64,000 nt of DNA from Diaminobutyricimonas aerilata (lineage in GTDB: Bacteria > Actinomycetota > Actinomycetes > Actinomycetales > Microbacteriaceae). The notes under the pieces are model-generated. The model was not told the origin of the DNA. It worked only from the letters and a program-made list of their open reading frames with translations, and searched no databases. The stretch's first letter is position 1. The number at the start of each line of letters is the position of its first letter. Both the position numbers and the translations under genes were made by a program. This document shows, in pieces, positions 5,674 through 11,396 of the stretch. The stretch is taken from contig NZ_PGFF01000001.1 in assembly GCF_002797715.1 (NCBI RefSeq), forward strand, positions 3,309,304 through 3,373,303. Direction: 5' to 3'.

Positions 5674-6264
5674 ATGGGCGCGTCGAGCCGGGCGCGCACC
5701 GTCGTGCTCGTCGAGGGCGAGAGCGATCGGCTCGCGCTCGCCGCTGCCGCCCGCCGGCTCGGCGTCGACCTCGGGGCGTCGTCGGTCGAGGTGCTCTCGA
5801 TGCGGGGGATCACCAACCTGCGCGCACACCTGCTCGCGCATGCCGCGGGGCCCGACCGGACGCGCATCCTCGGCCTCTACGACACCAACGAGGTGGGGCA
5901 GGTCGTGCGTGCGCTCGCGGCGGTCGGGATGCTGCGGACGGTTCCGGTCGACCCGGCGGCACTCGAGTCGCTCGGCTTCTACGGGTGCGTCGGCGACCTC
6001 GAAGACGAGGTCATCCGCGCCGCCGGATCGGCGGAGGTGGAGCGCTCGCTCGCCGCGTCGGGCGATCTCGCCAAGTTCCGGACCTTCCAGAGTCAACCGG
6101 CGCAGCGCGAGCGGACGATCGAGGCGCAACTGCACCGCTTCGCCGGCACCGCGAGCGGTCGCAAGGCGGGGTTCGCCGTCGACATCATCTTGCGCATCCC
6201 GGCGGAGCGGATGCCCGGTCCGCTCGTGCGGCTCATCGCCGACGCCGTGGGCGAACCGAGCTGA
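5674..6264 (+). CDS. Stand-alone OLD-like TOPRIM domain protein
   Basis: The 196-residue protein looks like a lone TOPRIM domain. Near the start it has the strand-turn VVLVEGESDRLAL with the conserved glutamate (Glu14), and further on the strand RILGLYDTNE, where the usual acidic pair reads Asp70 and Asn72. The closest familiar group is the OLD-type TOPRIM (nucleotidyl transferase/hydrolase fold), here without the ABC ATPase domain to which it is usually fused. A nucleic-acid cleaving or regulatory role is possible, but the Asn in the DxD position leaves activity doubtful. It follows the LLM gene after 11 bases, so the two may share a transcript with no obvious functional link. Confidence 0.75.
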   Translation: MGASSRARTVVLVEGESDRLALAAAARRLGVDLGASSVEVLSMRGITNLRAHLLAHAAGPDRTRILGLYDTNEVGQVVRALAAVGMLRTVPVDPAALESLGFYGCVGDLEDEVIRAAGSAEVERSLAASGDLAKFRTFQSQPAQRERTIEAQLHRFAGTASGRKAGFAVDIILRIPAERMPGPLVRLIADAVGEPS

Positions 6265-6284
6265 GGACATCCGTCGCCCGAACG

Positions 6285-6315
6285 TTGACAGGGATTCACT
6301 CCCTGCTGTTACAGT
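6285..6315 (+). promoter_or_regulatory. Sigma-70-type promoter of the Lon-domain lipoprotein gene
   Basis: A perfect TTGACA -35 box (6285-6290) and a TACAGT -10 box (6310-6315) are separated by 19 bases; TTACAG one base earlier gives an 18-base spacer. Transcription would start near 6322, leaving about 80 bases of leader before the GTG at 6402. This is one of the few promoters here with a consensus -35 box. Confidence 0.65.
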
Positions 6316-6401
6316 GCCATGCACGTCGTGCCCCGAACGGGGGTCAGGGCGTCGCTCGCCACAAGCGAGGCCCCCGCCCGCATCCCGCCCGGAGTCCCCC
6401 T

Positions 6402-8336
6402 GTGCGTTCCCGTTCCCTCGCCCTCACCACCATCGCCGCCGCGATCACCGCGTCGCTCGCCGGCTGCACGCTCATCCCGAACCTCACCGGAGGCGGAGGC
6501 GGCGAAACCTCCGCGACCGGGTACCGCGCCGACTCGGTGGAGCTGCAGGTGCTGTACGCGGCCGGCGACACCGGCGGCGTCGCCACCCAGCACATCTCCG
6601 TACGCCCGTCGGATGACGGCGACATCAGCGTCGACATCAGCGAAGACGAGGTCTCCGGCGTGGGCGACATGACGCGCGCCGCATCCTGGAACGCCCTCTC
6701 GGTGACGACGCTGCTCACGGGCGCGCCGCTCGACGTGAACTACCGCTTCGCGTTCGACGGCCGCATCGACGGACCGAGTGCCGGCGCGCTGACCACCGTG
6801 GGACTGCTGTCGATGTACTACGGCACCGAGATCGACCCGACCAAGACGATGACGGGCACGATCAACCCGACCGGCACGGTCGGCACGGTCGGCGGCATCC
6901 CCGAGAAGATCCAGGGCGTCATCGACGCGGGCGAGATCGAGACGGTGCTCATCCCCGCAGGGCAGCGCAACGTTCCCGACAACGCGGGCACCCTCGTCGA
7001 CGTCGTCGAGCTCGGCGCCGACAACGACCTCGAGGTGATCGAGGTCGCCGACGTGTACGACGCGTACGAACGGCTCACCGGCGAGCAGCTCCCGGTGCCC
7101 CAGCAGGGCAGCGATCTGCAGGTCACCGGTCGCGCGTACGACAAGTTCAAGAGCGCGACGGATGCGACCCTCGCCCGCTTCGATCGCGCGTTCGCGGAGT
7201 TCTCCGGCCTCGACCCGGTCGTCCAGGCCGGGGCGCAGCCGAACGTCGACGAGGCGGTCGGGTTCGCCGACCGTGCTCGCAGCCTGCAGCAGCAGGGACT
7301 GCAGGGCGGGGCGTTCTTCGAGGCGGGCAGCGCGGCGATCCTGATGGAGGCGGTCAACAACTCGTTCCGCACCGTGCAGAACCTCCTGCTCGGCGACATC
7401 AACGCGATCAGCACGCGCCTCGACGCGGCGGCGAGCGTCGAGGCCGAGGTGAACGCGTTCCTCGACCAGCTGAGCACGTATCAGCCGAAGACCCTGAACG
7501 ACGCGGACGCGCTGATCAGTGCATACGGCGGCACGTTCGACTCGTTCTCGTTGCTGCAGTTCGCGCGCTCCGCGTTGCAGAACATCTTCGACAAGGCGGC
7601 GAACGGCGAGTACACCGACCCGCAGCAGCTCATCACCGACGCCCTCATCAACCTGCTGTACTTCGACTTCGCGCAGGGCCAACTCGAGTTCGTGCGCTCC
7701 GGTTTCGACGTGGGCCGCGACAACGACGGCGCCCCGATCGCGAAGGACGCCGACCTGGATGCGATCGGCTCGTTCCTGCGCCGAGCCGCGGATGCGAACG
7801 CGGCCGCCTTCGAGAGCGGCGTCATCCAGCCCGCAGCCGAGGGACGCGGCTGGTCGAACGACGTGTTCCGCAACGCGCTCGGCGGGGTGGATCTCGACGT
7901 CGCACTCGCCTTCACGGCGCAGCAGTCGCTGCCCGCGATCGAGCAGTACATCGACGACAGCGACAACGCGGCCTTCGCGGCGATGGGCTACGGCAGCGTC
8001 AACTTCGCCCGCAACGCGGTGCTGCTCGAGAAGTACTACAACAACGGCGTGCTCGACGAGAACCTGATGCTCGTGGGTGTCAACTCCGAGACGATCCTCA
8101 CGCGGGCTCTCGACCTCGGCCGTTCACAAGCGGGCGCATCCGCATCCATCCTCGTCGACAACGGCACCGACCCCGTGCTCGCGACGGGCTCGTTCGAGCA
8201 GGCGAACGTGCTGCGGGAGGGCGACGTGCTGCAGAAGTTCCAGGCGATCGCGCAGTACTCGTCGATCTTCGTCACCGCGCGGGTGCTCGCCTACGCCGGC
8301 GGCTTCGAGCGCGACGGTTACGACGCGGCCGACTGA
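6402..8336 (+). CDS. Secreted lipoprotein with Lon-type (S16) serine protease domain
   Basis: The 644-residue product begins with a lipoprotein signal: RSRS, a hydrophobic stretch, and the lipobox SLAGC with Cys22. After a glycine-rich linker, residues about 45-200 form a Lon proteolytic domain. The catalytic serine is Ser126 in RIDGPSAGAL and the partner lysine is Lys169 in VGGIPEKIQG. Their 43-residue spacing equals that of Ser679 and Lys722 in E. coli Lon. No ATPase or PDZ domain is present. Residues about 210-644 match nothing I recognise; they look mostly helical and rich in Ala, Asn and Gln. The domain would work outside the membrane without ATP. GTG 6402 has GGAG eight bases upstream. 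Substrate and partners are unknown. Confidence 0.85.
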   Translation: MRSRSLALTTIAAAITASLAGCTLIPNLTGGGGGETSATGYRADSVELQVLYAAGDTGGVATQHISVRPSDDGDISVDISEDEVSGVGDMTRAASWNALSVTTLLTGAPLDVNYRFAFDGRIDGPSAGALTTVGLLSMYYGTEIDPTKTMTGTINPTGTVGTVGGIPEKIQGVIDAGEIETVLIPAGQRNVPDNAGTLVDVVELGADNDLEVIEVADVYDAYERLTGEQLPVPQQGSDLQVTGRAYDKFKSATDATLARFDRAFAEFSGLDPVVQAGAQPNVDEAVGFADRARSLQQQGLQGGAFFEAGSAAILMEAVNNSFRTVQNLLLGDINAISTRLDAAASVEAEVNAFLDQLSTYQPKTLNDADALISAYGGTFDSFSLLQFARSALQNIFDKAANGEYTDPQQLITDALINLLYFDFAQGQLEFVRSGFDVGRDNDGAPIAKDADLDAIGSFLRRAADANAAAFESGVIQPAAEGRGWSNDVFRNALGGVDLDVALAFTAQQSLPAIEQYIDDSDNAAFAAMGYGSVNFARNAVLLEKYYNNGVLDENLMLVGVNSETILTRALDLGRSQAGASASILVDNGTDPVLATGSFEQANVLREGDVLQKFQAIAQYSSIFVTARVLAYAGGFERDGYDAAD

Positions 8337-8383
8337 CGCGCCGCATGCGCGGGCCTCGCGCGCTGCGCGGGCACCCGATGCCA

Positions 8384-8440
8384 CGAGTTGGCGAAACCCA
8401 CCCGAAACCGGGTGCCCATAGGGATGGATTCGACAACTCG
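8384..8440. repeat. Cruciform-like intergenic inverted repeat
   Basis: Outer arms CGAGTTGGCGAA (8384-8395) and TTCGACAACTCG (8429-8440) pair with one mismatch over 12 bases. Inside lies a perfect hairpin CACCCG-aaac-CGGGTG (8399-8414). The element fills the gap between two convergent genes, next to a separate terminator. Its function is unknown. Confidence 0.6.
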
Positions 8441-8488
8441 CGAACCGAGTCCGGGCAAATCGCGGGTAGCCGTCACTGAGACGCGATC

Positions 8489-8515
8489 GGGGCCGGTCCC
8501 GAAGGAACCGGCCCC
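8489..8515. terminator. Rho-independent terminator between convergent genes
   Basis: GGGGCCGGT (8489-8497) pairs perfectly with ACCGGCCCC (8507-8515) around a short loop. It lies just past the stop of the minus-strand surface protein and can also end transcription from the lipoprotein gene. Confidence 0.8.
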
Positions 8516-8533
8516 GCGCTATCGCGCCTCAGT

Positions 8534-11365
8534 TCAGGCGTCGCCCTCCCGACGCGCGGCCTGGCGACGGACCATCAGCGTGGCCCCACCGAGCAGGAGA
8601 AGGAGGAATCCGACGCCCACAGCGGGACCGGCGAACTCGGCACCCGTCGCGACCAGACCGCGCCCACCGGCACCGCTGCCGCCGGTGGTCGGCGGCGTGG
8701 TCACGACGGCGCCCACCTCGATCGTCGCGGTCGACGGCGCGGAGACCGTCGGGTCACCGGCGGGAGTGGTGCCCGTCGCGGCGGCCGTGTTCGTCAACTC
8801 GCCGGCGTCGACATCCTCGGCCGTCACCGTGTACGTCGCGGTGCAGGTGAGGGAATCGCCGGGGGCGAGCGGGTCGGTCGCGGGACACGTCACAGCGGAG
8901 AGCTCACCGGATCCGGAGAACTCGACCTCGTTGACGGCCGGAGCCGCGATCGTCACGTTGCCGGTGTTGGTGAGGAGGAACGAGTACTCGATCACCTGGC
9001 CGGCGACGGCGACGTCCGCATCCGCGGTCTTGACGAGGGTCAGCGCCGGGGCCGGATCAATCGTCACCTGGGCCGTCGAGGGGTCCGAGCCGATCGGGAC
9101 CCCCGACGGCGGCGTTCCGCCGACGGCCGCGGTGTTCGTGATCCCGCCGGCGTCGACGTCGGCCTGCGTCACTTCGTAGGTGGCGGTGCAGGTGATGAAC
9201 TGGCCCGCGAAGATCGTCGTCGTCGGGCAGTCGATCGCAGAGACTTCACCCGTTCCGGAGAAGTCGCCCTCGTCGATCACCACGTCGGTCAGCGTCACAT
9301 TGCCGGTGTTCGTCACCAGGAACGAGTACTCGACGACCTGCCCGGCCTCGCTGATGTCGCCTTCGGCGGTCTTCACGACGCTGATCCCCGGCTCCTCGGG
9401 GGTCGGGATGGTGACCTCGGAGGGCGCGGAGGTGATCGGCGTGCCGTCGGCGGGAGTGCCGGATGCGGTCGCCGAGTTCGTGACCTCACCCGCGTCGACG
9501 TCCTCCGGAGTGAGCGTGTAGGTCGCCTCGCAGATCACCTGCGCGTCGACGGCGAGGGTGGTCGCGGGGCAGGTGACTGCGGAGAGTTCGCCGGTGCCCG
9601 AGAACGTGCCCTCGTCGACCGTGATGTCCGAGAGCGGCACGTTCCCCGTGTTGGTGACGACGAAATGGTAGGTGATCTCCTGACCGGGCTCGAGCGTGCC
9701 GGAGGACGGGTCGGCGGACTTGACGAGCGTCAGAGCCGGCGCCGGTGCCTCGGTGGGCGTCGACGTGGTCGACGGGGTGGAGGTGAACTCCTGGCCGTCC
9801 GGCGTGCTGGCGGAGACGGTCGCGGTGTTGATCACGGCGCCCGCGGTGACGTCGTCCGCGGTGACCGTGTACACGGACTCCGCGGAACACGTCGTGGTGC
9901 CGCCGACGGCGAGCGTCGTCACCGGGCACGTCACGTCGCCCACCTTCGGGTCGTCGACCGCGATGTCGGAGAGGTCGAGCTGCCCCGTGTTGGCGACATC
10001 GAAGGTGTACTGGATCGTGTCGCCGGCGTCGGTGATGCCGTTCTCGTTGACGTCGACCGGCACGCCCGCGTGCTTGGTCAGCGACATGCCCGCCAGCGGA
10101 GCGGTGCTCGTCGACGTGTTGTTGCCGGGGGTCGGGTCCTCCTCGTTCGACGTCACCGTTGCGGTGTTCGCAACGGCCGAGGTGACGTTGGCGGGAACGT
10201 CGGCGGTGATCGTGTACGTCGCCGAGCTGCCGGCGATGAGGCGGCCGCCGACGCAGCGGACGTCGTTGCCGGTCACCGTGCACGCGTCATCCGTGCTCTG
10301 CACGTTCGTCAGCGGTGCGGGAACGGCGTCGTTGACGACGAAGCCGCTCGAGTTGCCCGGTCCGTTGTTCGTCACGGTGAGCGTGTAGCTGGCGGTGCCG
10401 CCGGCCGGCACGACCGATGCGGGACCGGTCTTGACGACCGAGAGGTCGGTCGGCAGACCCCCCACTGCGGCGCCGTCGTTGTTCCCGCTCGCGGGACCCG
10501 CGCTGACCGCCACGAGCGTGAAGGTGGGCGTGGCGGCGGCAGGGTCGGTCACCCCGACCTGGAGCACGTCACCGGTGGTATTGACCGAGAAGCCCAGGTT
10601 GCCGTTGCCGAAGGTCCACGCGGCCCCTGCGAAGCCGGAGGCTTGGAAGGAGGTCGTGAAGGTGTCGACCACGCCCGTCGTGGGGTGGATGCGCTGGATC
10701 ACGGCCGTCGTGCCAGAAGTCAGGAGTCCCCAGAAGTAGCCGTCCGCATAGGCGAGGTCGGCTACGAGGTTCGGGGCGTTCAGCGTGAGGGTGCGCACGA
10801 CAGCGCCGGTGGTCACATTGATGACGTTCATCAACCTCTCGCTGCCGGCACCGCTGCTGCCGATGTAGAGGTAGCCGTCAGGGCCGAACACGCCCACGTT
10901 CCAGTTCGTCGCGGTGGGGTAGGTGGCCGTGCCGACGCGCGTGAGCTGCCCCGACTGCCCGATCCGCACGAGGGAGTTGTCGGGGAACGCGGCGTTTCCG
11001 CCACCCGTCACGACGATGCCGTACAGGTAGTTGTCGGCGGTGTTGTAGGAGATCGCGTTGTAGGTGATCGGCGACGCCGCACCCTCCGGGGCGAAGCTCA
11101 CGGTGCCACTGTCGTCGGTGGTCGCCCGGGACAGCGCCGTCGGCTGACCCTGAGCGACGAAGACCAGCGGATCGACGGCCGAGAACGGGTCGCCGGGTGC
11201 CGCATGCGCGGGCGTCACGGTGAGCAGCGATCCGGCGAGCGCCGACGCCGCGAGCGCCAATGCGCCGACCGAAGCGAGCACCCGGGTCCTCCGGGAACGA
11301 ATCGCCGGCAGCACCCCGGCCCCGGCCGCGGAGCGCTCGCGCCCCGCTCGACGATACGACTCCAT
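8534..11365 (-). CDS. Wall-anchored surface protein with DUF11/DUF7507-type repeats
   Basis: The 943-residue protein has a long Sec signal (twin-arginine-like basic start, hydrophobic core, THAHAAP-like cleavage near APGDP). Residues about 60-270 resemble the DUF6923-type propeller domain with repeated Y-L-Y-I-G strands. Then come five Ig-like repeats: one DUF11-like unit (DLSVVKTGPASVV onward) and four DUF7507-like units of about 110 residues, each starting with LVK/VVKTA and containing TNTGNV. The C-terminus reads LVATG, a hydrophobic helix and RRQAARREGDA, a sortase anchor of the LxxTG kind. It is probably an extracellular stalk or adhesin. ATG 11365 is preceded by GAGGGGGATCTG; an earlier ATG at 11383 lacks a box. 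Confidence 0.88.
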   Translation of the reverse strand: MESYRRAGRERSAAGAGVLPAIRSRRTRVLASVGALALAASALAGSLLTVTPAHAAPGDPFSAVDPLVFVAQGQPTALSRATTDDSGTVSFAPEGAASPITYNAISYNTADNYLYGIVVTGGGNAAFPDNSLVRIGQSGQLTRVGTATYPTATNWNVGVFGPDGYLYIGSSGAGSERLMNVINVTTGAVVRTLTLNAPNLVADLAYADGYFWGLLTSGTTAVIQRIHPTTGVVDTFTTSFQASGFAGAAWTFGNGNLGFSVNTTGDVLQVGVTDPAAATPTFTLVAVSAGPASGNNDGAAVGGLPTDLSVVKTGPASVVPAGGTASYTLTVTNNGPGNSSGFVVNDAVPAPLTNVQSTDDACTVTGNDVRCVGGRLIAGSSATYTITADVPANVTSAVANTATVTSNEEDPTPGNNTSTSTAPLAGMSLTKHAGVPVDVNENGITDAGDTIQYTFDVANTGQLDLSDIAVDDPKVGDVTCPVTTLAVGGTTTCSAESVYTVTADDVTAGAVINTATVSASTPDGQEFTSTPSTTSTPTEAPAPALTLVKSADPSSGTLEPGQEITYHFVVTNTGNVPLSDITVDEGTFSGTGELSAVTCPATTLAVDAQVICEATYTLTPEDVDAGEVTNSATASGTPADGTPITSAPSEVTIPTPEEPGISVVKTAEGDISEAGQVVEYSFLVTNTGNVTLTDVVIDEGDFSGTGEVSAIDCPTTTIFAGQFITCTATYEVTQADVDAGGITNTAAVGGTPPSGVPIGSDPSTAQVTIDPAPALTLVKTADADVAVAGQVIEYSFLLTNTGNVTIAAPAVNEVEFSGSGELSAVTCPATDPLAPGDSLTCTATYTVTAEDVDAGELTNTAAATGTTPAGDPTVSAPSTATIEVGAVVTTPPTTGGSGAGGRGLVATGAEFAGPAVGVGFLLLLLGGATLMVRRQAARREGDA

Positions 11366-11396
11366 CAGATCCCCCTCGTTCACGGACTACTCCCCC

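Follow-up and report, generated by a model that had tools for sequence, protein, structure and literature searches.

Lon is the textbook cytosolic protease driven by ATP. What, then, might a Lon (S16) domain be doing in a protein that carries no ATPase and has the front end of an exported lipoprotein? The question is raised by a gene within the 64,000 nucleotides analysed here (called the window below), which come from the genome of Diaminobutyricimonas aerilata, a single contig of 3.49 Mb. Table 1 gives the layout of the gene and its product.

Table 1. The S16 lipoprotein gene, its features and its adjoining genes in window coordinates (rows are those of the homologue alignment described in the text).
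Feature	Position	Strand	Basis or remark
OLD-like TOPRIM protein, 200 aa	5662..6264	+	directly upstream; resembles GajA models weakly, in their TOPRIM part
TTGACA hexamer	6285..6290	+	present; 19-nt gap to TACAGT; promoter not confirmed
S16 lipoprotein gene	6402..8336	+	GTG start, TGA end; 644 aa; full-length relatives exist
Signal peptide and lipobox LAGC (Cys22 = 6465-6467)	6402..6467	+	sequence; column is Cys in 46/50 bacterial rows
Lon protease (S16) domain, aa 45-230	6534..7091	+	Pfam Lon_C; VIA-align; Foldseek
Ser126 codon, expected nucleophile (DGPSAG)	6777..6779	+	55/55 rows
Thr151 codon (MTGTI), place of the conserved Lon threonine	6852..6854	+	55/55 rows; LonA rows share the +25 offset
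Lys169 codon, expected general base, +43 from Ser	6906..6908	+	55/55 rows
All-helical C-terminal domain, aa 243-633 (about 390 aa)	7128..8300	+	model of aa 236-644; no Foldseek (PDB, E <= 0.001) or Pfam match
Surface protein, 949 aa (DUF6923, DUF11, four DUF7507 stretches)	8534..11383	-	convergent with the S16 gene

The reading frame is preceded by GGAG, 7 nt 5' of the GTG at 6402, and its TGA ends at 8336. The original prediction saw in the TTGACA upstream a sign of strong independent expression. The hexamer is real, but the closest -10-like hexamer lies at an abnormal spacing, and a scan of positions 6200-8600 found no promoter-like sites at all (mean of 0.1 in shuffled sequences), so this part of the prediction is not supported.

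The identity of the N-terminal domain is clear from several directions. Pfam Lon_C (PF05362) matches aa 123-189 with 34.4 bits, above its curated cut-off of 21.1, and it is the sole Pfam family in the protein; there is no Pfam match to an AAA or a PDZ domain, in keeping with the earlier claim that the S16 domain has neither for company. NCBIfam Lon models match the same region, far under cut-offs set for whole proteins. Sequence matches in the PDB are Lon protease domains, the best being that of Bacillus subtilis Lon (8dvh, E 1.7e-8). The full protein was modelled by AlphaFold2 with 43 aligned sequences (mean pLDDT 91.1, pTM 0.89). When aa 45-230 of the model were compared by VIA-align with solved Lon protease domains, Z was 21.6 for 6on2_D (171 residues aligned, rmsd 2.3) and 21.2 for 1rr9_A, from E. 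coli Lon; the best Foldseek match to the modelled domain had E 2.1e-9. In two PDB entries of Lon protease domains, 4ypm and 6x27, bortezomib is bound. The predicted fold is thus Lon-like, as had been anticipated for aa 45-200. Beyond Lon_C, the chain offers the helical domain and not the AAA+ module of an ATP-dependent Lon.

Is the active site intact, and is it kept? A five-row profile, run against species genomes, gave 64 loci, of which 54 were used together with the window protein to make an alignment of 55 rows. Left out were loci cut by contig ends (L029, L031, L034, L050, L058, L064, L066, L067) and two with short frames: one from Bythopirellula (L030, 5818-6762) that stops after 314 aa, though the match extends further, and a copy of just 230 aa from Nitrospira (L063, 1788-2480). 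Ser126, Thr151 and Lys169 keep offsets of 25 and 43 in all rows, the offsets found also in LonA rows from related genomes, and the 43-residue distance of E. coli Lon, claimed at the outset for one protein, holds throughout the alignment. Pro125 is found in 54 rows and Asp123 in 50, with Gly in the other five. We take Thr151 to match the conserved threonine of E. coli Lon.

Some of this constancy was built in. Since the search patterns contained Ser126 and Thr151, the conservation of Ser and Thr among the scan loci was partly selected, and therefore 396 genomes of the phylum were also searched with the helical domain only. Six genomes matched, the window's own included, and in all six the helical domain is preceded, in the same frame, by an S16 domain that has Ser, Thr and Lys. 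(A second helical-domain piece in genome G878, L110, is a contig-end fragment.) All 20 archaeal loci fetched (L111-L130) also keep the three residues; L111 is the same gene as L071, already among the 55 rows. A distant archaeal protein, L137, has offsets of 24 and 42, not 25 and 43. No full-length homologue examined lacks the Ser or the Lys, which is how the survey proposed with the prediction came out.

The lipobox called at Cys22 also held up. Among the 46 bacterial rows with Cys at this position, at least two have poor lipoboxes (HAGC in L026, SSGC in L040). Archaeal members show a different surface anchor: their N-terminus is hydrophobic, and at the C-terminus there is a hydrophobic stretch with basic residues, preceded in many by PGF. 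When six of them were scanned with the Pfam PGF-CTERM model, L122 passed (23.6 versus a cut-off of 18.8) while L114 (18.5) and L123 (16.6) fell slightly under; when ten were scanned with the NCBIfam model, L122 fell slightly under (24.4 versus 24.5), and the other nine were lower or absent. Given a lipobox Cys in bacteria and a C-terminal PGF-like stretch in archaea, it seems that a protein of one kind is fixed outside the membrane by different ends in the two groups. For the window protein, an intact site and a surface location are both well supported, as far as sequence can speak for them. The predicted signal peptide and lipobox do not suit an enzyme facing the cytoplasm, as ATP-dependent Lon does, but suit a membrane anchor with the site outside, as in the YlbL/SepM type.

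The C-terminal part of the protein has no such pedigree. Built alone from 30 sequences, the model of aa 236-644 is nearly all helix (pLDDT 93.3, pTM 0.92). Foldseek found no match to it in the PDB at E <= 0.001, sequence profiles found none there either, and the window copy belongs to no Pfam family. The description of this part as unlike anything known stands to the extent that no Pfam family contains it; the protein as such, however, has company in a family scattered patchily over bacteria and archaea. Resemblances to helical bundles (the ULK1 complex, with Z 10.2 over 123 aa the best VIA-align row; vinculin; talin) were set aside, as they fall below the tool's level of about 13 for helical proteins. 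HEPN and other weak Pfam matches in relatives are under their cut-offs. Internal duplication found no support, the two halves scoring 13.3 against decoys of up to 17.5. We claim for the modelled domain neither a kinship nor a proven new fold. A domain predicted with such confidence, and without any accepted match, makes a good subject for structural study.

Within the family the peptidase domain is more conserved than the helical one, with a median identity to the window protein of 0.38 as against 0.16. Between the two bacterial sub-branches, hhalign shows the helical domains to be related, with a score of 61.7 (80 decoys at 28.4 or less). Comparison with archaea gives 37.7 over 319 columns for the first sub-branch (80 shuffled decoys at 24.2 or less, reversed profile 30.5) and 13.9 for the second, actinobacterial one. 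For the layout as a whole, common descent in bacteria and archaea is likely; for the helical part it is not proven.

The family is patchy, occurring in Actinomycetota, Chloroflexota, Myxococcota and archaea. At the class level, a whole-protein profile matches 270 of 296 genomes at E <= 1e-8, but among the matches listed it is full-length in three genomes, and the others cover positions of about 94-250, the S16 part common to ordinary Lon and YlbL. Because the whole-protein matches are largely S16-only among the matches listed, counts were taken from the helical-domain search. Besides the phylum sample already described, the S16-helical gene was found in 5 of 150 genomes of the family-level sample (the window's own included) and in 1 of 297 of the order sample, the window's own. 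Homologues are labelled as Microbacterium, Jiangella, Cellulomonas, Tessaracoccus, Actinotalea and Rhodococcus, and further as Acidimicrobiia, Chloroflexi and a deltaproteobacterium (Myxococcota). In the archaeal phylum of L071, a match of at least 250 bits occurs in 35 of 196 genomes, a figure that counts in the seed genome and a split gene, and archaeal S16-helical frames run to about 590-690 aa. A scan of viral contigs and a tblastn search of plasmids and phages turned up no relatives, and the window protein has no match in the defence library.

Several loci deserve mention on their own account. Those labelled as Bifidobacterium breve MAGs (L033, L036, L047, L049, L051, L052 and others) group with freshwater-type actinobacterial MAGs, which makes the label doubtful; some of them hold several copies. 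The genome of L071 carries a tandem S16-helical duplicate on contig C13, at 96591-98264 (L138) and 99429-101267 (L111). Archaea also have S16-only proteins (L131-L136), about 260-310 aa long, in which the helical domain is missing and the N-terminal part contains a membrane segment; in one of them, L135, Lys reads at +44 from Ser.

A tree of 74 S16 domains was made by a quick method; it is unrooted, and the program warns of long branches. Within it, 36 bacterial rows form one side of a branch with support of 96, while YlbL (3 rows), LonA and LonB form three further branches with support of 99, 98 and 99. A group with support of 83 unites the archaeal rows, all but the long-branched L137. Window-type S16 domains therefore do not sit on the YlbL branch but on one of their own.

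In the whole genome, Lon_C matches four proteins: the window protein, a YlbL-like PDZ-S16 protein (L001, in which PDZ is present), a ComM-like Mg-chelatase and a RadA-like protein. Since ATP-dependent Lon is absent from these four matches, the window protein and the YlbL-like protein would be the only S16 peptidases in the genome.

What does such a protein do? We give a probability of about 0.7 to the reading that it is a Ser-Lys endopeptidase, independent of ATP and anchored outside the membrane, whose helical domain chooses or gates its substrates. The idea of a surface protease independent of ATP was part of the original prediction, and the Lon-like predicted fold, the invariant Ser and Lys and the kept anchors now speak for it. 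On this reading, the protein would be exported as a lipoprotein, and a lipid on Cys22 would fix it to the cytoplasmic membrane on the outer side, where the N-terminal S16 domain, with an A-type centre, would cut by means of Ser126 and Lys169 and without ATP. The helical domain would do duty for Lon's AAA+ ring, or for YlbL's PDZ domain, and presumably choose or gate what is cut. Since there is no ATPase in the chain and none is expected outside, the substrates should be unfolded, flexible or presented at the membrane, perhaps exported proteins or peptides that are unfolded or close to the membrane. Both ways of doing without ATP have precedents. LonC cuts unfolded protein ATP-independently (PMC3391209). 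YlbL, a membrane-anchored S16 protein with no ATPase, is needed to clear YneA and loses its function when its Ser is replaced, and membrane presentation of the substrate is discussed for the pair (PMC6051672); the authors did not detect protease activity of YlbL in vitro (PMC6051672). A more sweeping version, which we consider doubtful, would have one surface-anchored ATP-independent Lon family common to bacteria (N-terminal lipid) and archaea (C-terminal anchor), in which a new helical domain stands in for the AAA+ ring and gates a degradation chamber outside the cell that may be ring-shaped.

That the window protein is catalytically active is what the sequence leads us to infer, and some observations pull the other way. 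No conserved neighbour points to a pathway, and the search with the helical domain, free of selection for the Ser/Thr pattern, gave just six genomes. Also, VIA-align fits the model to Lon folds that are not proteases, RadA (Z 17.9) and BrxL (Z 17.6), which raises the thought that the protein uses its fold for binding or as an assembly scaffold, with no protease activity. A scaffold would hardly account for Ser, Thr and Lys that are invariant at fixed spacing, and the genome's own RadA-like and ComM-like proteins, unlike the window protein, are without the GPSAG motif. We consider it the least probable of the readings. Scarcely more probable is that the S16 domain cuts its own chain, for example at the linker of about aa 230-242, so that the helical part is the product that matters. 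This too was put forward in the original prediction, and inside the model no part is less certain than the linker, where residues 231-240 have pLDDT 77. Between the sub-branches, however, the linker shows no cleavage motif that is kept, and the persistence of a two-domain layout with an intact site does not favour self-processing over the cutting of other proteins. No positive evidence came to light for it.

A narrower form of the preferred reading has a somewhat better, though still unlikely, claim: the protein may be a dedicated processing protease in envelope signalling that, like SepM, cuts a peptide or the outer domain of a sensor, and not an agent of general clean-up. In four loci the stop of the S16 gene overlaps by 4 nt the start of a gene for a 763-aa membrane protein (L049 at 2304, L057 at 6625, L065 at 7812, L067 at 1539), whose histidine-kinase ATPase domain is above the cut-off in L057 and L067 and just below it in L065. 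A related kinase gene lies beside the S16 gene, divergently, in L052 (3333-5606), and hybrid or other kinases or GGDEF genes are near those of L014, L016 and L018. But the four coupled loci are closely related, at 85-90% identity in the three that were measured, and so count as roughly one event. Among 59 nearest neighbours at 38 non-redundant loci, HATPase_c occurs three times and a luciferase-like family four times; because the kinase signal is no stronger than that, the coupling stays a lead. The genome around the window has 29 HATPase_c places. There is no kinase beside the window gene, which has on its 5' side a luciferase-like gene and the small OLD-like TOPRIM gene. An all-against-all comparison of frames around 69 loci found no partner common across the family.

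Two other kinds of neighbour were seen in passing. A gene resembling neurotransmitter-gated ion channels (Pfam Neur_chan_memb, 33.6 bits) stands divergently beside the homologue in L007 (2780-3859), with relatives in L041, L044 and L046, from freshwater-type Microbacteriaceae. An NB-ARC/TPR protein is encoded about 100 nt downstream of the S16 gene in both L013 (8062-10632) and L015 (7889-10414).

If the window protein is the ATP-independent surface endopeptidase we prefer, then it represents a branch of Lon with an intact site outside the cell, in bacteria and archaea alike, and neither AAA+ nor PDZ, and the control of a Lon site without ATP becomes testable. Through the S16-helical family, envelope proteins may be quality-controlled, or peptides processed, by a route so far overlooked.

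Among known systems, the nearest in kind is the YlbL/SepM type. We place SepM among the YlbL-type membrane-anchored PDZ-S16 proteins. The window protein is like this type in having an S16 domain with a Ser-Lys site, no ATPase and an anchor that, by prediction, leaves the site outside; the SepM-family NCBIfam model nevertheless gives it 17.6 against a cut-off of 200. In YlbL there is a membrane helix, PDZ comes ahead of S16 and the Ser-Lys distance is 45 (S234/K279; PMC6051672), whereas the window protein has a lipobox, no PDZ, a helical domain after S16, a distance of 43 and a separate branch in the tree. With LonA, LonB and LonBA it shares the fold of the protease domain, Thr at +25, Lys at +43 and the A-type centre, defined in the LonBA paper by Pro before Ser (PMC9569914). 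Those enzymes are cytoplasmic or face the cytoplasm and have an AAA+ module; the window protein differs in its predicted export, the lack of AAA+, an unrelated helical domain and its separate branch. LonC is likewise an S16 enzyme independent of ATP, and a model for the cutting of unfolded substrates only; it forms soluble hexamers in the cytoplasm and has a degenerate AAA-like domain, neither of which was found for the window protein (PMC3391209).

Closest in layout are the archaeal S16-helical proteins (L068-L073, L111-L130), which have the same order of signal peptide, S16 with Ser, Thr and Lys, and helical domain. They differ in a motif of the GGPSAG type in place of DGPSAG, in the absence of a lipobox from most, and in a C-terminal anchor that is often PGF-CTERM-like, and their helical domains are only distantly like that of the window protein. 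Presumably these exported archaeal proteins are COG1750. A review of archaeal membrane proteases gives S16, in its excerpted text, solely as the cytoplasm-facing LonB (PMC4343526), and the LonBA paper tells of many S16 groups without ATPase parts (PMC9569914). In the literature searched, mostly outside subscription journals, no title or abstract names an S16-lipoprotein or S16-helical architecture, and no study of any member was found. Since ATPase-less extracytoplasmic S16 proteins are already known in YlbL, the window protein is best seen as what it is, a new architecture of a known kind of enzyme.
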